Assembly: GCA_903879705.1 (NCBI GenBank)
Contig: CAIRMO010000064.1
Span: 1 to 32,970, forward strand
Direction of reading: 5' to 3'
DNA from: an uncultured Candidatus Competibacteraceae bacterium
GTDB lineage: Bacteria; Pseudomonadota; Gammaproteobacteria; Competibacterales; Competibacteraceae
DNA: 32,970 bases
Each line of letters begins with the position of its first letter. Positions within the stretch are counted from its first letter, which is position 1. Below are positions 1 through 8,839 of this stretch, piece by piece. Under the pieces are notes generated by a model. It was given only the letters and a program-made list of their open reading frames with translations. It made no database searches and was not told where the DNA came from. The translations under genes and the position numbers were made by a program.

Positions 1-893
1 ATAGTGACATAGGGGCTGATGTCGCTGACTTCGTGGGGAATCGCCCGCTTTTCCACCGCGATCCGAATCTTTTCAGCCAGGTACGCTGCGCCATCGAGGG
101 CGGTATCGGGCAGGAGGACGATGAACTCCTCGCCACCGTAACGCGCCACAAGATCGCCGGGCCGGGACATCATATTCTTTATGGCCGCCGCAATTTGCTT
201 CAAGCAATCATCGCCGCCCAGATGTCCGTAATGGTCGTTGAACGATTTAAACCGATCCACATCCAGCATGATCAGGGCGACCGGCTTTTTGTTCCTCGCC
301 GCTCTGGCCCATTCCTCCGCATAACGCTCGTTGAAATAGCGGCGGTTGGCCAAGCCGGTCAGCCCGTCCAGATTGGCTAACTGCAACAATTTCATATTGA
401 GTTCTTCGAGCAGGATTTGGCTGGCCCGCAAGGCCCGATAGGCTTCATCCCGCTGCAACCTGTTGATATAGGAAATCGAGTGGTAGCGCAACCGGGCGAT
501 TAACTCGAGTTTTTCAGGCGGCTTGACCAGATAATCATTAGCGCCGGCCACGAACGCTTGCGCCTTGATCGCCGAGTCATTGGTGCTGGACAGCATGACC
601 ATCGGCAGATCGCGGGTCGTAGGGTGATTGCGGAACAAGCGGCACAGCGTCAACCCATCAATGTTTGGCATGACCAGATCGAGCAAAACCACGGTCGGAC
701 CGATTTTTTCGGCGGTGCTGATGGCCTCGGCAGGATTGACGCAGTAATGAAAGTTGATGTCCTGCTCACCGAGCAATTGCCGGCGGATAATCTCGGCCAC
801 AAACCGTTGATCATCCACCAGCATCACCAAGAGCGGATGCTCCGGGCAAGAGGTAATGGCGGATTCATGGGGGGTACTGGAAGATATATTCAT
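1..893 (-). CDS. WspR-like response regulator diguanylate cyclase (3' end outside window)
   Basis: Translation from the ATG at 893 gives 297 residues before the window edge cuts the gene. An N-terminal receiver domain (about residues 20-140) has the acidic pair DD at 27-28, phospho-acceptor Asp72 in a LLDLVMP context and the KPP lysine. A short helical linker leads to a GGDEF domain. The active-site motif GGEEF lies near residues 253-257, with an intact RxxD inhibitory site (RPGD) five residues before it, so an active, product-inhibited cyclase making c-di-GMP from two GTP is expected. The domain order and linker wording (LQRDEAYRALR) closely resemble Pseudomonas WspR. It lies 275 bp downstream of cheW on the same strand, with an inverted repeat between, and is probably the output of the chemosensory kinase. 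Only the cyclase C-terminus is missing. Family confidence is high; pathway membership is inferred. Confidence 0.93.
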   Translation of the reverse strand, partial: MNISSSTPHESAITSCPEHPLLVMLVDDQRFVAEIIRRQLLGEQDINFHYCVNPAEAISTAEKIGPTVVLLDLVMPNIDGLTLCRLFRNHPTTRDLPMVMLSSTNDSAIKAQAFVAGANDYLVKPPEKLELIARLRYHSISYINRLQRDEAYRALRASQILLEELNMKLLQLANLDGLTGLANRRYFNERYAEEWARAARNKKPVALIMLDVDRFKSFNDHYGHLGGDDCLKQIAAAIKNMMSRPGDLVARYGGEEFIVLLPDTALDGAAYLAEKIRIAVEKRAIPHEVSDISPYVT

Positions 894-994
894 TCAATTT
901 GCCTGAATGTGTCGAACCGCGCTAACCGGGTGCCGAAAGTGACCATCACCCATTGAATGATTATGGGAATCCGATTTAAGTTGTGGCATTTATC

Positions 995-1047
995 GTAGCA
1001 CGGGCATCCTGCCCGTGTTTAGCCCACGGGCAGGATGCGCGTGCTAC
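995..1047. repeat. Long imperfect palindrome (REP-like hairpin)
   Basis: Two 23-nt arms, 995-1017 and 1025-1047, are reverse complements with one mismatch and a 7-nt loop. Each arm is also partly self-complementary (CACGGGC...GCCCGTG). It lies in the 275-bp gap between cheW and the WspR-like gene, which otherwise shows no coding sequence. A second, weaker GCCGG/CCGGC hairpin is at about 1086-1105. No T-tract follows, so it is not a classical intrinsic terminator. A dispersed extragenic palindrome that also shapes mRNA ends is the likeliest reading. Confidence 0.75.
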
Positions 1048-1168
1048 TTCTACAACCGGTTTAGGATGCCTATAGTCCACCGCTGGCCGGCAATTATTTT
1101 CCGGCGGATCATCGGTAATCTGGATGATCTTGCGGCCCTCGCCACCCTCGCATTTTTACTTCCTCGTC

Positions 1169-1639
1169 TCACGCTGGCGCGGCGATCACAGTAGCGTCCC
1201 ACTGGAACAGCGCTGGCGGGTCAAGGATGGCGATCAGCCGGTCGCCTTCGCGCCACAGGCCATACAGGTTGCCCCGTAACACGGGATCAATGCCGGCGGG
1301 GGGCGGGGCGATCCGGTCCTCGCTGACCACGATAGCATCGGTCACGGCGTCTACCAGAAAGCCAATGGGTTCACCCTGCCACTCCATGATCAGCAACCGC
1401 GCCTCCGGACCCCGGGTGGCGCAGCCCAATTTCAGCCGCACCGCCAGATCGACGACGGTCACGATCCGTCCGCGCAGGTTGCGAATCCCGGCCACCGCCG
1501 CTGGCGCATGATGGACGCAGGTCAGATGGCCCACTTTGACCACTTCCTGAACCCGCCGGGCGTTGACCCCAAAGGTCGCGTTGCCCAGCGTGAACACGAT
1601 GATCAGCAGCCCTCTATCAAGATCTTCATCATGTTGCAT
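1169..1639 (-). CDS. CheW-like scaffold protein
   Basis: A 156-residue single-domain CheW protein. It would couple the chemoreceptor to the CheA kinase at the cytoplasmic face of the membrane. The fold is visible as FTLGNATFGVNARRVQEVV, then a GIRNLRGRIVTVVDLAVRL segment, the VDAVTD strand and a final ILDPPALF strand, as in CheW/WspB/WspD proteins. There is no signal peptide or extra domain. The ATG at 1639 lies 35 nt after the receptor stop codon, so it is very probably co-transcribed with the receptor and cheA. Because the CheA here already carries two CheW-like modules, this protein may serve as the separate array linker. Confidence 0.92.
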   Translation of the reverse strand: MQHDEDLDRGLLIIVFTLGNATFGVNARRVQEVVKVGHLTCVHHAPAAVAGIRNLRGRIVTVVDLAVRLKLGCATRGPEARLLIMEWQGEPIGFLVDAVTDAIVVSEDRIAPPPAGIDPVLRGNLYGLWREGDRLIAILDPPALFQWDATVIAAPA

Positions 1640-1674
1640 CGCGTTTCTCCCCGTCAGGATGCCCGCGTTCAGGC

Positions 1675-3687
1675 TTAAACCCGAAACTGGCTGACCATGC
1701 TCCGCAGTTGTTCAGCGAGACAGGATAGTTCGGCGGCGCTGACCTGCACATGTTCACCGCCGGTGCGGATTTCGCCCGCCGCCAGATTGACCTCGGCGAG
1801 ATCCCGGGCCATTGAGCGGGACACGCCGGCGGTTTGGGCGACCTGTTCATTGGCGTTCTGCACTCCGAATGACGCTTGGGCGATATGCCCGGCGACATCG
1901 CGGGTCACCGTCGTCTGCTCTTCAATCGCCGAGGCAATGCCGGCGATCAGGTGGCCGACATCAGTAATGACGGCGGTGATCTTCGCAATGTCGCTGGTAG
2001 CGCTGTGGGTAGCGCACTGCACCCCGCTGATCCGGCCCTTGATATCCTCGGTCGCGCAGGCAGTTTGTCGGGCCAGTTCCTTGATTTCACTGGCGACCAC
2101 CGCAAAGCCCTTGCCGGACGCCCCGGCCCGTGCCGCCTCAATGGTAGCGTTGAGCGCCAGCAGGTTGGTTTGCGAGGAGATATGGGTAATGGCTTCCGTA
2201 ACTTTGCCAATGGCCTGCGCCGCCTGATCCAGCTCCTGCATCAGTGCCGACACCGATGCCGCCTGCTCACCGGTATGGTGGCTAATGACGCGGGCCTTTT
2301 CCGCATTAGCGGCGATCTCGCCCATGGTGGCGCTCATCTCCTCGGTAGCGCTAGCCATCGACGCCAGGTTTAGCGCGGTCTGTTCCATGCCGACCACGAC
2401 CGCTGCAGTATTGGCGCTGGACTGGTCGGCGGCGATAGCGGCGGTAGCGGTGCGCGAGGACAGGGTTTCGAGGCTCTGGGTGGTCTGGGCGCTGATCACC
2501 GACAATTTGGCCGCTGCCGATGCGATGGTGACTGCGTTGCCGACCATCTGGCTGATGATGCCCTGGAGTTTTTCGACAAACCGGTTGAAATAGCGGGCCA
2601 GGTCACCCATCTCGTGAGCGCCGTCCGCCGCGAGGCGCAGGGTCAGATCGCCTTCGCCCTCGGCAATATCCTTGAGCATCGTTACCACAGCACGAATTGG
2701 CCGGGTGATACGGACCGCCATGAGCAGGGAGAACGCCACGACGCTGGATAGCACTACGATCAGGCCGACCCCCACTTCCCACAGCGTTCGGCTGGCTTCG
2801 CGTTCGAGTTGCGCGGTTTTGGTCAGGACGGCGCTGACCTCGGCCTCAATCAGCGTGCCGATATCGTCAATCACGCTAGTGGCGACGGGCCAGAAGTCGG
2901 CCGGCTTAATCCCGAAACCGCCGGTGCGGGACTTGTCCAGCACCGTGTTGATAGTCTGGTTCATTTGCCGCCAGTCGGGCTGGCTGGAAAGGTTATCGAT
3001 CCGGACCACGCTGTCGGGGAGCAGGGTCAGCGCCCTGGAGGACAGGTTGGCGTCAATCTGGCCCTTGAGTCGCCGCACCGTCAAGACCTGATCTTCAAGC
3101 AGGGGTTGATCCACCCCCAGAAGGCCCGAAACGGTGGCGCGAAGAAGGCCGGCGCTCTCCTTGGCGCTCTCCAGCACCAGCAACGAGGTAAACACCTTGC
3201 CGACACCCTTGGTGGTCGGGGTGTTGGTGATAGCGTTCATCAGGGTCAGCAGTTGATCAATTTTTTCGCTGTACAGCGGGATCGCCGCGGCTGGCTCAGT
3301 GATCGCAGCGCCGATCTGGTGGCGCAGGGCATCCAGCTTGATCATTTCCGGGGCATATTTGCGTTGCTCGGCGACGCTCAGCACGCTGGCCGCCAGTACA
3401 GTTTGCAACGCCTCCATCTGGGCATCGGTTTTCCGGCGCTGCCCGTCCAGCTCAGCGCGGACCAGAGCGCCGGTCAGGAACATCGACGTTCGTCCGCGTT
3501 CCCGTTGCAACTCGGTGATCAGTTCACTGGCCGCCTTGAAGCAGATGGCATTGTGGTTCATGGTCCGGGCCAGGACGCTGGTCTGGATGTTTTCAGCAAC
3601 AATCCCGATTCCGCTGAGCAAAATCAGCAGCAGCGGCAACAGATTCGTAACCAGAATACTGGCGCGAATGGACAGGTTCAGTTTCAT
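1675..3687 (-). CDS. Methyl-accepting chemoreceptor with NIT sensor domain
   Basis: A 670-residue inner-membrane receptor. TM1 is at about residues 10-30. A large periplasmic NIT-type sensor (about 40-295) carries the family hallmark [10 protein letters not shown] at 59-68. TM2 is at about 303-325, followed by a HAMP segment (about 326-380) and the long MCP signalling coiled coil. The hairpin tip is intact around 501-535 ([19 protein letters not shown], then [11 protein letters not shown]). NIT domains are linked to nitrate/nitrite sensing in NasR-type proteins, but the ligand here is unknown. There is no C-terminal pentapeptide tether for CheR/CheB. It sits between cheA (32 nt gap) and cheW (35 nt gap), so it is most likely the dedicated receptor of this kinase. 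Confidence 0.93.
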
Positions 3688-3719
3688 CAGGGTTTCCCGT
3701 AAGAAGGCATAATCTCAAC

Positions 3720-5885
3720 TCAAGCCGCGGCGCAAGCATGGACGCTGACCAACAGGGGGTCGCGGTCGAGCTTGATCCGATATTCATTGATCCCGATGGT
3801 TTTGCCCTTGGCGATGTCGTCTTCGCTGAACAGCGAGGTGAGGGCGATGATGGGCAGATGGGCGGTGCGCGAATCAGCGCGGATCCGGCTGGCCAGGCCC
3901 AGGCCGTTCAGGCGCGGCATCTCGAGATCCGTCACCACCACTCGCACCTGTTCCAGTTTGTGCAGCAGCAATTCCCAGGCGGCCTCACCATCGACCGCAT
4001 CCAGCACCGTAAAGCCGTCTTCCACCAGATATCGCTTGATCTGGTTGCGAAAGAAGTCGGAATCTTCGGCCAGCAACACGGTGACGGCCTGGTAGTCGCG
4101 GCAGGTGGCCCGCCAGTCGGGATGAACCACATCCACCAGATCATGCAGATCAGCGATCAGGGTCGTGCGGTGGTTGATCAGAACCGAACCGGCGATGCCC
4201 TTTTGCCGGTGGGTGATTAGGTCGATCATCAGCCGCGTTTCGACGACATCGATCGGCATGGCCCCCAGCAGGCCAACTTCACGCCCGTGGACGCTGGAGA
4301 CCAGCACCGCCAGTTCCTGAGCGTCTTCAATCGGGTGAATTCCGCCCGCATCGGCCAGTGTCACCAGCGGCAGTGAGCCGCCCCGGTATTGCATGGTGCG
4401 TTGCCCGCCGAGTCGCTCGATCCGGTTGGGGGTAATCCGTTCAATCCGCTGCACTATATCCAGCGGCACCGCGCACGGTTCATCCGGGCGGTTATGGAAC
4501 AGCAGCAAAAAATGGACATCCTGCAGGCGCTCGGTTTCGGCTTGGGTGACCCGATCGACCGCGCGAGCCGATCCGGCCACCGAGGTCAACCCCGCCCGAT
4601 TCGCCACGCCGGCGATATCCAGAATCAGGGCCACGGTCCCATCGCCGAGAAGTGTGGCTCCGGCATAGTCATGCAGGTGCTGGAGCCGCCGGTTGAGCGG
4701 TTTGACCACGATCTCTTCGGCGTCGTGAAACCCGCCGACTACCAGCCCGTAGCTCATCAAACCGGTGGTGACTACCGCAATCTCCAGCGCCGAGGCAGCG
4801 CTTTTGCGGCGACCGTCCGCCCGGGGCTGGCCAGCCGGCTGGCGGTGAGCCGCTGCCAGCGGTTCGCCAAACAGGGCATGGCGCGGGGAGCGCCGGTCGG
4901 CCAGTCGCCCGCGCTGATCGGGTCGGCGCTGGCCCGTTGCCGGATCGATATAGGTGGGAATAATGCCCAGCACCTGATCCAATCGGGTCAGCGGCAACAT
5001 CCGGTCGCGCAGCAGCAGCACCTCGGCATCACCCACCACTTCGATACGGCGCTGGACTTCTTCTGCCCGTAGCCGCAGCAGTTCTTCGATATTGGCCTGA
5101 GGGATGGCGAACCGCTCGGTTTCGACCGATACGATCAGCGCCGGAATGATCGCCAGAGTCAGCGGCAGTTTGATGCGAAACAGCGATCCCTTGCCCACTT
5201 CGGACAGGATTTCCATTTGCCCGCCGAGGCGATCCAGGTTGGTCTTGACCACATCCATCCCGACCCCGCGTCCCGAAACGTCGGACACCTGGCGGGCAGT
5301 GGACAGGCTGGGCAGGAAGATCAGCGCCTGTTTGTCGCGGTCGGTCAGCCCCTGGATTTTTTCTGCTGAAATCAAGCCGTTCGCGATCGCGGCAGCGGCA
5401 ACCCGGTGTGGATCGATCCCTCGGCCATCGTCGGCAATCTCCACTACCACCTGCCCGGCTTCATGGCGCGCATCGATCCGCAAACGTCCCACCGGATTTT
5501 TGCCGGCGCGGATGCGATCTTCGGCGGTTTCGAGGCCGTGATCGACCGCATTGCGCACCATGTGAGTTAGCGGGTCGGACAAGTTCTCAATCAGGCTGCG
5601 GTCGAGTGCGACGTCCTTGCCCTGAATATCGAGATCGATCTCCTTGCCCAAGGTCCGCGCCAGATCCCGCACCAACCGGGGAAACTTGGCGAACACATTG
5701 CCCATCGGTTGCAGGCGGGTTTGCAAGATGACGGTCTGCAATTCCGAGGTGACCTGGTTGATCCGATCTTCAGCGGCGGCGAGGGTTTGCGGATTGTTCT
5801 GAGTCACCGCGACGCGAAGCTGGTTGCGGCTCAACACCAGTTCACCGGCCAGATTCATCAGGATTTCCAGCAGGCCGACATGCAC
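3720..5885 (-). CDS. CheA-type hybrid histidine kinase, catalytic, CheW and receiver part
   Basis: 721 residues from a GTG at 5885; this is the larger half of a kinase split at 5949-5958. In order: dimerisation helices (1-60), an HPK ATPase domain with N-box RNAVDHGLE at 111-119, G1 DDGRGI at 152-157 and G2 GRGVGMD at 205-211, a first CheW-like domain (about 240-430), a second CheW-like domain (about 450-590), and a C-terminal receiver domain with Asp608, phospho-acceptor Asp653 and Lys705. CheA kinases with a fused receiver are typical of Wsp-, Pil- and Frz-type pathways. In the same frame, coding sense continues upstream of the GTG (PPGLTRAAEAAAPADETLRV), so the GTG is probably not the natural start and the true gene joins the Hpt ORF. 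An R/A/P-rich insert of about 55 residues (312-366) interrupts the first CheW-like domain. Confidence 0.9.
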   Translation of the reverse strand: MHVGLLEILMNLAGELVLSRNQLRVAVTQNNPQTLAAAEDRINQVTSELQTVILQTRLQPMGNVFAKFPRLVRDLARTLGKEIDLDIQGKDVALDRSLIENLSDPLTHMVRNAVDHGLETAEDRIRAGKNPVGRLRIDARHEAGQVVVEIADDGRGIDPHRVAAAAIANGLISAEKIQGLTDRDKQALIFLPSLSTARQVSDVSGRGVGMDVVKTNLDRLGGQMEILSEVGKGSLFRIKLPLTLAIIPALIVSVETERFAIPQANIEELLRLRAEEVQRRIEVVGDAEVLLLRDRMLPLTRLDQVLGIIPTYIDPATGQRRPDQRGRLADRRSPRHALFGEPLAAAHRQPAGQPRADGRRKSAASALEIAVVTTGLMSYGLVVGGFHDAEEIVVKPLNRRLQHLHDYAGATLLGDGTVALILDIAGVANRAGLTSVAGSARAVDRVTQAETERLQDVHFLLLFHNRPDEPCAVPLDIVQRIERITPNRIERLGGQRTMQYRGGSLPLVTLADAGGIHPIEDAQELAVLVSSVHGREVGLLGAMPIDVVETRLMIDLITHRQKGIAGSVLINHRTTLIADLHDLVDVVHPDWRATCRDYQAVTVLLAEDSDFFRNQIKRYLVEDGFTVLDAVDGEAAWELLLHKLEQVRVVVTDLEMPRLNGLGLASRIRADSRTAHLPIIALTSLFSEDDIAKGKTIGINEYRIKLDRDPLLVSVHACAAA

Positions 5886-5929
5886 CCGCAGAGTTTCATC
5901 AGCCGGGGCAGCGGCTTCGGCGGCGCGGG

Positions 5930-6469
5930 TCAGTCCCGGCGGTAGTGGTTTTTTTTTTCCACCGATGGCACGACGTGCGGCGGGACCGCGGGGATCGCCC
6001 CCGGCTCCGGGATTGTGACAGGGTCGTCCACGACCACCGGCGGTGCCGGAAAAAAAGTAGCCTTGCGATCCAGAGCGAGATCCGACTCAGCCAAATGGGT
6101 CAGGCTGGCCACCAGATCAGCAATGTGGACCTGATGGCTGCCGGCAGCGTCGTTGATCATTTCGCGGAGCTTGTCGAAGGCGGCCAGCAGAAGATTGGTC
6201 ACCTCGGCACTGGGGAACATCTGGCGCGAGCGGAGCAGGTCCAGCACCGTTTCAGCCTTGTGTGCCAGCTCCTTGACCTTGTCCAGTCCGAAAAAACCGC
6301 TGCCGCCCTTGATCGAATGGGCGGCCCGGAACACTTTATTAACCAGTTGCTCGTCGATATCCGCTCCACCTTTCTCGATGGCCAGCAGATCCGTCTCGAT
6401 GGTCGCCAGGTGTTCCCGCGATTCATCGATAAATTCATTCAATTCATTCAGGAGATCATCACTATCCAC
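5930..6469 (-). CDS. CheA N-terminal Hpt (P1) domain, frame-separated from its kinase
   Basis: 179 residues from a GTG at 6469, preceded by an AAGGGTG ribosome site. Residues 1-110 form an Hpt domain with phospho-accepting His51 in AAHSIKGGSGFFGL, the CheA P1 signature. A Pro/Val-rich linker follows, and the frame ends at a TGA shortly after a run of ten A residues (coding strand). Adding one A, or removing two, joins the linker smoothly to the kinase ORF to give one CheA of about 920 residues with no P2 domain. The start is 25 nt after the upstream receiver gene stop, so they form one operon. As read, the Hpt would be a separate phosphotransfer protein, which is possible but less likely than a slippage site or a sequencing indel. 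Confidence 0.88.
   Translation of the reverse strand: MDSDDLLNELNEFIDESREHLATIETDLLAIEKGGADIDEQLVNKVFRAAHSIKGGSGFFGLDKVKELAHKAETVLDLLRSRQMFPSAEVTNLLLAAFDKLREMINDAAGSHQVHIADLVASLTHLAESDLALDRKATFFPAPPVVVDDPVTIPEPGAIPAVPPHVVPSVEKKNHYRRD
5949..5958 (-). other. A10 homopolymer splitting cheA
   Basis: Ten consecutive T on the plus strand, A10 in the coding sense. The reading frame changes here between the Hpt and kinase halves of CheA. Possible causes are transcriptional slippage, +1/-2 ribosomal slippage, phase variation or a homopolymer sequencing error. The sequence alone does not decide. Confidence 0.9.
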
Positions 6470-6494: not shown

Positions 6495-7703
6495 TCAGAA
6501 CAGCTTGAGGATAGAACCCACGATCGCGGCACCGGCAGCCAGCAAGGCGAGGAGGCCGATCACCAGCGCTGCCGTGGCGCGAGACTGGCCAGGAGCGCCC
6601 CCGTGCGTAGCAAGATTCGCCGCCGCCTGGTGAACCGAGCGATCCGCAGCTTCCCGGGCGATGGTTTCGATCACCGGCTGGATGCCGCCCCGGACCATCT
6701 GGATGACTTGCTGCTTGAATTCAGGCGCGCTAGTCGCCATCACCATGGCTTCCTGGGTTTGACGCTTGACCTGGACTTCGATTTCCCTGAACAACTCGTC
6801 CCGGTTCATCTCCAGACCCCGGGCGATATTGCGCTGCGAAACGCTCTCACTGACTTCACGCGCGGCGACTTCCGCGACCGCCCGGGCGCTTTCCTGGGCG
6901 GCAGTGCGGGCGGTGCGCTCAGCGGTGCCACGCGCAATTTCAGTAGCAATCTGCTTGGCCGCTTCCTGCGCGGCTCGTACCGCGGCATGTGCTGCCCGCC
7001 GGCCCAGATCCTCGGAAATGCTCCGGGCAGCTTGGGTAGCGGCTTCCCTCGCCAGGTTGGGAACCAGTTCCTGAACAAGGTCGCGGGCCACTTTTTCTGC
7101 CGCCGCCCAAGCCGCACGTTCGGCAATCTGCTCAATATCGGTCACCGATAGCCCGGGCGTTGCCGGCGCAGTTTCGGCAATTGGCGTCGCCGGGACAGGA
7201 GCGGCTGGTGTTTTGATGATCGGGATACTGATCGACGGTTCACCCGATCTGGCTGGCGGTGGGGCTTTTTCGACGATGACGGGCCTGGGGATGAGCGGCG
7301 CGGGAGTGGCTACCGGTTCCATGGAGATGGTCGCAATGCCGGCGCTGACCTTGTTCAGCACCTCATCAAGCTGCTCGGGGGTATAGGGTTTGGAGAGGAA
7401 ACCGACCGCGCCGCTGTCTCTGGCGTCGCGTTTATCCTCGTCCGTGGCGTTGGCGGAACACATGATGATGGGCGCAGTGTCCGGCTGGCGTCCGGTGATG
7501 GTTCGGCTGGTCTCGAACCCGTCCATGCCCGGCATCATGACATCCATAAAAATGATTTGGGGTTTCTTGGTATCCAGGTACTTGATACAGTCTTCACCCG
7601 ATCCCACCCAGTCTACTTCAATGCCACGTTCAGTAAGCAGCCTGCGTAAGGTAATGTGGGCGACCTTGGAATCGTCCACCACTAGCGCCTTTTTGATGTT
7701 CAT
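6495..7703 (-). CDS. Tail-anchored receiver protein with Ala-rich helical rod
   Basis: 402 residues from the ATG at 7703, chosen because AGGAGA lies 6 nt upstream; an ATG at 7721 in the same frame has no such site. Residues 1-125 are a complete receiver domain (Asp10-Asp11, phospho-acceptor Asp54 in FMDVMMPGMDG, Ser83, Lys105). A Pro/Ala-rich linker (about 125-180) is followed by an unusually Ala-rich, charged amphipathic helical region (about 180-300, many AA/AR/AE steps). Residues 374-400 form a single hydrophobic segment ending in LKLF, a likely C-terminal membrane anchor. No DNA-binding or enzymatic output domain is seen. It is the first gene of the cheA-mcp-cheW cluster, 25 nt before cheA, so CheA is the likely phospho-donor. 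I do not recognise a named family; a scaffold or localisation factor is inferred. Confidence 0.85.
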   Translation of the reverse strand: MNIKKALVVDDSKVAHITLRRLLTERGIEVDWVGSGEDCIKYLDTKKPQIIFMDVMMPGMDGFETSRTITGRQPDTAPIIMCSANATDEDKRDARDSGAVGFLSKPYTPEQLDEVLNKVSAGIATISMEPVATPAPLIPRPVIVEKAPPPARSGEPSISIPIIKTPAAPVPATPIAETAPATPGLSVTDIEQIAERAAWAAAEKVARDLVQELVPNLAREAATQAARSISEDLGRRAAHAAVRAAQEAAKQIATEIARGTAERTARTAAQESARAVAEVAAREVSESVSQRNIARGLEMNRDELFREIEVQVKRQTQEAMVMATSAPEFKQQVIQMVRGGIQPVIETIAREAADRSVHQAAANLATHGGAPGQSRATAALVIGLLALLAAGAAIVGSILKLF

Positions 7704-7769
7704 GCGGGTCTCCTGCGGCATGTAAAGTATGACTGTTGCTATGCGTGGAGTCGGCTTCCCGCTGGCTTA

Positions 7770-7888: not shown

Positions 7889-8839
7889 TCATGGTCGGTC
7901 ATCCGCGCTTTCCTTGGCGTGCGGCAACAAATCCTCGCGGCTGATGCCCAGATACAAGGCACTGGCGCTGGCAATATAGATCGACGAGTAGGTACCCACC
8001 ACGATACCGATGATCATGGCGACCGAAAAGCCGCGCATCACCGTTCCGCCAAAGAAGTACATCACGATCACCGACAACAGGGTGACGAAGCTGGTCATGG
8101 TGGTGCGCGACAGGGTTTCGTTAATTGACAGATTCATGATTTCCAGCACTGACCCCTTGCGCCGCTTGCGAAAATTCTCGCGGATTCGGTCCAGCACCAC
8201 CACCGTGTCGTTGACCGAGTAGCCGATCACGGCCAGTACCGCCGCCAGCACCGTCAGATCAAATTCCAGTTGGAACAGCGAAAACCAGCCAACTGTAAAA
8301 ATCACGTCATGGATAGTGGCGGCGATAGTGCCGACGGCCAGCCGCCATTCAAAGCGGAGCATCACATAGGCCAGAATCCCCAGTAACGCGCCCAGCGCCG
8401 CCAGTCCGCCTTGTTCGACCAGTTCATGGCCGACCTGCGGCCCGACGAACTCGGCCCGCGCCAGCGTGACTCCGGCTCCGCCTTCTGCATTCTGCAGGGC
8501 CGTCAAGACCTGATTGTTCAGGGTGGCGGCGTTGATCTGCGCACGGGGCGGAATGCGGATCAGCACATCCCGCGAAGTGCCAAAATGCTGAGTCTGTGCG
8601 TCGCCGTAACCGGCCTTGACCAAGGTTTCCCGCACCTGCGGGATGGCAACCGGATGAGGGTATTGCACCTCGATCACGGTGCCGCCGGTGAAGTCCAGCC
8701 CCAGATTCATCCCGCGAATCAGCACTGAGCCAACCGCGATCAGCAACACGGCGACTGACCAGCCCATCGCCAGTTTGCCCCAGCGCAGAAAGTCGATCCG
8801 GGTGTTGTAGAAATCAAATTGCCAGATAGCTTTTTTCAT
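7889..8839 (-). CDS. secF: Protein translocase subunit SecF
   Basis: 316 residues, the usual size. SecF forms the inner-membrane SecDF-YajC complex that uses the proton gradient to help pull proteins out of SecYEG. The N-terminal helix (about 22-42) is followed by a periplasmic region beginning GLDFTGGTVIEV, the SecF signature. A C-terminal bundle of five helices contains GYSVNDTVVVLDRIRENF and the SINETLSRTTMTS segment. The start lies 6 nt after the secD stop, so the two are translationally close. SecF is the last gene of the tgt-yajC-secD-secF block; 185 bp separate it from the chemosensory operon. Confidence 0.98.
   Translation of the reverse strand: MKKAIWQFDFYNTRIDFLRWGKLAMGWSVAVLLIAVGSVLIRGMNLGLDFTGGTVIEVQYPHPVAIPQVRETLVKAGYGDAQTQHFGTSRDVLIRIPPRAQINAATLNNQVLTALQNAEGGAGVTLARAEFVGPQVGHELVEQGGLAALGALLGILAYVMLRFEWRLAVGTIAATIHDVIFTVGWFSLFQLEFDLTVLAAVLAVIGYSVNDTVVVLDRIRENFRKRRKGSVLEIMNLSINETLSRTTMTSFVTLLSVIVMYFFGGTVMRGFSVAMIIGIVVGTYSSIYIASASALYLGISREDLLPHAKESADDRP

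Follow-up and report, generated by a model that had tools for sequence, protein, structure and literature searches.

A predicted tail-anchored response regulator with a conserved helical rod in Competibacteraceae

A gene from an uncultured Candidatus Competibacteraceae bacterium encodes a new architecture of response regulators, in which a receiver domain is followed by a flexible linker, a very long rod and a hydrophobic tail that is predicted to anchor the protein in the membrane. The rod, with a hydrophobic period close to four residues, is a structural puzzle. We propose, giving the idea about an even chance, that this tail-anchored response regulator is a membrane-tethered, phosphorylation-controlled, self-assembling helical scaffold. 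The gene lies in the window, the whole stretch of 32,970 nucleotides that was analysed, where a preliminary description had singled it out.

Results

Domain organisation of the receiver-rod protein

The coding sequence (6495..7703, minus strand) is an open frame of 402 residues with orthologues in other genomes. Its ATG at 7703 is preceded by AGGAG, a ribosome-binding-site-like motif (7710..7714, minus). Residues 1–120 (7344..7703, minus) form the receiver, as indicated by Pfam, alignments and the structural model. The PF00072 match in the 402-residue protein covers residues 7–116 with an E-value of 3e-28. Residues D10, D11, D54 and K105 show no variation in alignments of 12 and of 21 relatives, and position 83, a serine here, is Ser or Thr in 12 of 12 aligned rows. 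With Foldseek, the receiver found receivers or receiver proteins throughout the 50 matches listed out of 1749. Judged by its residues, the protein is a response regulator, combining the receiver fold with the acidic pair, the phosphoacceptor aspartate, the Thr/Ser and the lysine. The Pfam match and the intact catalytic residues bear out the preliminary description of a complete receiver that is probably phosphorylatable.

The receiver leads into a Pro/Ala-rich linker at residues 121–186 (7146..7343, minus), as had also been described, which is predicted to be disordered (pLDDT <50 at residues 124–184). In the AlphaFold2 model, built with 21 aligned sequences, the rod begins with a first helix at residues 187–324 (6732..7145, minus), unbroken over 138 residues and with block pLDDT of 80–89 over residues 191–320. 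A predicted second helix occupies residues 327–366 (6606..6725, minus; pLDDT ~65–68). The Ala-rich helix of the preliminary description is therefore recovered by the model, while its length of about 120 residues was an underestimate. Lastly, residues 373–401 (6501..6587, minus) form a hydrophobic C-terminal helix, the predicted tail anchor, with a Kyte-Doolittle mean of 2.52 over residues 378–396; the helix is modelled at low confidence (block pLDDT 47–73), and the hydropathy upholds the earlier reading of a hydrophobic tail. A lone C-terminal hydrophobic segment with few residues beyond it is the pattern of a tail-anchored protein, and insertion is predicted. Beyond the receiver and the first helix, little confidence attaches to the AlphaFold models: at a pTM of 0.35 the mutual placement of the parts carries no meaning, and the mean pLDDT across the five models ranges from 74.8 to 57.1. 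A second structure model, made for the relative L060, gave rod pLDDT of about 45–62 and was too uncertain for use.

As the preliminary description had supposed, the protein has no recognisable output domain: Pfam gives the receiver alone. Profile searches recognised only the receiver and left the rod without a family in Pfam, NCBIfam or PHROGs, both among the best 25 of 94 receiver-type matches and when rod and tail were searched by themselves. Against the PDB the rod sequence had six matches, the best with an E-value of 0.17. Matches to DUF445 (1e-4), BshC and a PHROG in L124, and to apolipoprotein (5e-4) in L139, were distrusted, as they involve repetitive helices and fall below the curated cut-off where one exists. 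A literature search covering few subscription papers found no paper matching a membrane-anchored, membrane-bound or tail-anchored response regulator.

With single-domain CheY-type response regulators the protein has the receiver and its catalytic residues in common, but it carries about 280 residues beyond these, comprising linker, rod and tail. In the MCUR1/CCDC90 head-neck-stalk-anchor proteins a stalk ends in a C-terminal membrane anchor; to our knowledge they have no receiver, and they are absent from the Pfam and PDB matches of the receiver-rod protein.

Distribution and related forms

A receiver-rod match (E<=1e-22) occurs in 34 of the 39 genomes of the window's family, some of the matches being partial or distant. 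Among the closest 22 loci, 15 are named Competibacteraceae, Competibacter or Contendobacter and 7 bear broader or other names, including one Synechococcaceae and one Phycisphaerales; the odd assignments among these seven are probably misnamed assemblies. When a profile from 12 relatives was run against 369 gammaproteobacterial genomes (E<=1e-28), 94 matched, many of them with plain short receivers. At least 24 of the 369 genomes, four of them Competibacteraceae, hold the tail-anchored form. A sister form is found in at least 26, a count that includes L177, with only about 47 residues past its membrane helix, and L171, whose frame is uncertain. Both forms occur together in four genomes.

In the sister form (loci L131, L133, L135, L136, L138, L140–L142, L144, L146, L148, L150, L170–L172, L174, L175, L177–L183, L186, L188 and L189), receiver and linker are followed by a single membrane helix, in most cases around residue 220, and then typically by about 200 residues, which would be periplasmic. 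Pfam gave no match above cut-off outside the receiver in the ten family members scanned, nor to these residues in the five sister forms scanned. The end of the sister-form C-terminal domain presumably resembles an OmpA motif. An OmpA-like protein follows the tail-anchored gene of L153, but it has no match to the sister-form C-terminal domain, and an OmpA link was rejected.

A receiver tree of 124 rows and 116 columns, with many forks unresolved, needs only 2 state changes between membrane-anchored and other proteins, so the membrane anchor looks ancestral; six paralogue rows were kept in this tree, and its 53 non-anchored loci rows came from the same query rather than from a random sample of receivers. 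The paralogue, found in Competibacteraceae, has a receiver, a helical part and, in most cases, a hydrophobic tail (in L196 none passes the hydropathy cut-off), with periods mostly of 3.7–3.9; the copy in the source genome lies at C61:24399-25484. In 19 of 19 fetched loci (L151 3823-5985, L191–L208) the gene after the paralogue encodes a coiled-coil protein with an N-terminal anchor; the single one that was scanned showed no Pfam match, and srfB is nearby in 7 of the 19.

In another lineage the gene for the tail-anchored form has a constant place, flanked by an rsmE-like methyltransferase gene and prmC; Pfam names these neighbours in L061, and the genes of L163 and L164 are alike in size and order. 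Other tail-anchored loci adjoin unrelated genes: tex, a helicase, glutamate dehydrogenase and methionine synthase.

The nearest precedents in layout are FrzS and AglZ of Myxococcus xanthus, in which an N-terminal receiver precedes a long helical, coiled-coil C-terminal part (PMC4546325). By analogy, the receiver-rod protein could be a polarity or pilus regulator whose receiver positions it and whose rod binds a motility machine. All 46 carriers (24 with the tail-anchored and 26 with the sister form, four having both) have a pilT-family match (E<=1e-120), versus 261 of the remaining 323 genomes sampled from the class, which may include further carriers; the p-value of 1e-4 is uncorrected for genome size or descent. 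This co-occurrence is only a hint towards pili; the pilT-family model lacks specificity for pilus retraction, as it also matches in the control, E. coli. Among the neighbours scanned there is no pilus gene. Moreover, the FrzS and AglZ receivers have no functional phosphorylation site, whereas D54 is intact and invariant here. The receiver-rod protein also differs from them in its hydrophobic tail and right-handed period, and known homology is limited to the receiver. A role of the FrzS/AglZ kind thus seems rather unlikely. In RomR, another Myxococcus xanthus protein with an N-terminal receiver, we know of no tail anchor or long rod. RomR takes phosphate from the CheA homologue FrzE and acts in cell polarity (PMC4546325).

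Conservation of the rod

From 28 extracted sequences we excluded L020 and L037 beforehand and compared the remaining 26 orthologues, one of which, L035, is a frame of 219 residues. Receiver and linker have mean pairwise identities of 0.85 and 0.38, respectively; the rod again reaches 0.85 at residues 183–300, followed by 0.67 at residues 301–350, 0.49 at residues 351–376 and 0.54 in the tail. Against three near relatives, the dN/dS of the rod at residues 183–300 is 0.028–0.042, that of the linker 0.20–0.50 and that of the tail 0.07–0.56; for the receiver, two near pairs gave 0.047 and 0.072, and the third pair was saturated. The hydrophobicity of the tail is kept more than its letters.

A rod core conserved as strongly as the receiver makes a passive spacer unlikely, contrary to the spacer role that the preliminary description had offered as one option, and together with the low dN/dS it argues for a specific binding surface. 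The same constraint bears on the idea of a membrane-tethered phosphate sink or buffer, whose rod merely keeps the receiver near a membrane kinase. The complete receiver, the flexible linker and the lack of an output domain would all suit such a protein, but a passive tether needs no rod that is constrained like the receiver and has a recurring period, and we consider a sink improbable.

Gene neighbourhood and the chemosensory cluster

In the window the gene lies on the same strand as, and 25 bp ahead of, the Hpt-domain piece of cheA (5930..6469, minus; called from its GTG), which was identified by Pfam and locus comparison and is a downstream neighbour in this genome only. Around them is a cluster of cheA-REC, MCP, cheW and REC-GGDEF genes. 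More fully, the minus strand of window positions 3–6469 encodes a CheA with a C-terminal receiver, an MCP with a NIT sensor, a CheW and, at the contig edge, a REC-GGDEF protein, a content that we take to be Wsp-like. The cheA gene is split into two frames (5930-6469 and 3720-5885, minus) close to a stretch of ten consecutive A (within 5947-5963). In relatives it is one open frame, of 932 residues in G027 and 902 in G026; judging from the sequence, the split could equally be an assembly error or slippage.

This position suggests a chemosensory accessory of the operon, phosphorylated by CheA and using its rod to tether or space the array at the membrane, much as the preliminary description had it when it called the gene the first of the cheA operon. 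The gene does adjoin cheA in this genome, but the link is not general among its homologues. Across 24 related loci (L038–L059, L060 and L061, with flanks of up to 10 kb, although the contigs of L047 and L059 stop inside the gene or directly behind it, leaving no downstream sequence) there is no CheA, CheW or Hpt match, and the only MCP-like match is one in L039, about 3.5 kb upstream. A further 20 loci with wider flanks (L151–L170) are likewise free of CheA, CheW and Hpt matches. In the two nearest relatives that have this che cluster, it sits at a different place, on another contig in G027 and about 13 kb off on the same contig in G026, with no receiver-rod gene adjoining it. The placement upstream of cheA is therefore peculiar to this genome among the loci examined. 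In the family as a whole, a CheA match (E<=1e-90) is found in 16 of the 39 genomes, many of the matches being to other CheAs at about 50% identity, which falls well short of the distribution of the receiver-rod protein. Involvement in the cheA operon or its array is thus unsupported, and we consider it about as improbable as a sink.

The neighbours that do recur around the orthologues of the window gene are limited to two. Upstream, secF (7889..8839, minus, in the window; identified by Pfam and locus comparison) directly precedes the gene on the same strand in 20 of the 22 closest loci (L038–L059); the exceptions are L053, whose contig begins 22 bases upstream of the gene, and L058, which has no secF. 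Downstream, ggt, the gene for gamma-glutamyltranspeptidase, is found in at least 9 of the 22, a lower bound because several contigs are short. The source genome (148 contigs) gave no ggt match at E<=1e-30, in a search run without a control, which fits a loss or rearrangement at the locus.

A hydrophobic period close to four residues

The strongest repeat of the rod lies at residues 191–290 (6834..7133, minus), where hydrophobic residues recur with a period of 3.94 and a power of 29.5. For comparison, the coiled coil of the MCP in the window has a period of 3.52 with a power of 15.0, and the ATP synthase b subunit of the same genome reaches a power of 8.4 at 3.72 over 80 residues, its periods ranging over 3.72–3.76. 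When residues 191–290 were sorted into eight phase bins at 3.94, three bins were 81–100% hydrophobic and uncharged, four were 0–21% hydrophobic and 43–64% charged, and one was intermediate, at 70% hydrophobic. On an ideal helix, a stripe of this period turns right-handed once per about 46 residues.

The period recurs across the family. By a hydropathy rule 66 records, duplicates counted, are of the tail-anchored type, and such records form 24 clusters with receiver identity below 70% between clusters. Fifteen of the 24 have a power >=12 at a period of 3.80–4.04, matched by 0 or 1 of 200 shuffles. In the other nine, one has a power of 12.1 at 3.18 and eight lie at 11.6 or below, three of them with short rods. 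Among 872 open reading frames from loci L038–L115, a power >=15 was reached at any period in 35 and at 3.88–4.10 in 22, and all 22 belong to the receiver-rod gene family, one being an antisense frame of a member. Alanine makes up about 31% of the strongest stretch, but its share is only 9–27% in the other strong-period clusters and the power of the window rod was reached by 0 of 200 shuffles, so that, with the period so exclusive to this family among those frames, it is very improbable indeed that the rod is low-complexity filler owing its period and conservation to composition and recent descent.

The heptad period of 3.5 of a canonical left-handed coiled coil was not found in the rod, which measured 3.94. 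Like the YadA stalk, other right-handed coiled coils and the F-ATPase b subunit, the rod has a period above 3.63 and thus a right-handed sign, yet its value, with relatives up to 4.04, exceeds that of the b subunit and the local 3.8 of YadA, the most extreme coiled-coil example named by Hartmann and colleagues (PMC4786415). The same source expects the upper limit of coiled coils near 3.9 residues per turn and puts 4.0 outside the accessible range (PMC4786415). In the rod the near-four period stays coherent over about 100 residues, at or beyond that range, so simple coiling may not occur. The helices may be supercoiled this tightly, may cross, or may be packed differently. Cages of the SPFH/flotillin type were considered as a precedent for the period and rejected; the six Band_7 proteins of the same genome have no strong period near 4 (best powers 5.0–8.9).

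Discussion

Our analysis suggests a membrane scaffold under the control of a receiver. The receiver would hang by its flexible linker from the rod with its right-handed hydrophobic stripe, the last 25–30 residues would sit in the inner membrane, and the N-terminus would be cytoplasmic. Because the stripe is conserved, we infer both self-assembly and a fixed partner of the rod: most likely, the rod self-assembles along the wound stripe of alanine and aliphatic residues into a membrane-attached bundle that also binds this partner. The anchored coiled-coil neighbour of the paralogue fits such a membrane assembly. A kinase encoded elsewhere would phosphorylate D54 and so switch the set of molecules that the receiver end brings to the scaffold or frees from it; conceivably, the source genome has co-opted CheA for the purpose. 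The phosphorylation-controlled scaffold at the membrane that the preliminary description had put forward is retained here as a best guess, detached from the cheA operon and array to which it had been tied.

A bolder version, which we consider possible and yet unlikely, holds that the rods form a new four-residue ('tetrad'), Ala-based, right-handed bundle beyond the range of coiled coils, in an ancient gammaproteobacterial family that assembles phosphorylation-controlled membrane scaffolds and whose sister branch signals to a periplasmic domain. Since the near-4.0 period lies at or beyond the proposed coiled-coil limit, the structure of one rod would put that limit to a direct test.

In textbooks, response regulators are soluble proteins whose outputs are DNA-binding, enzymatic or single-domain binding. 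The sister form, with its receiver, membrane helix and further domain, prompts one to ask whether a response regulator could signal from inside to outside. If our proposal is true, a widespread membrane-fixed receiver on a conserved rod would represent a further output class of response regulators, the scaffold.
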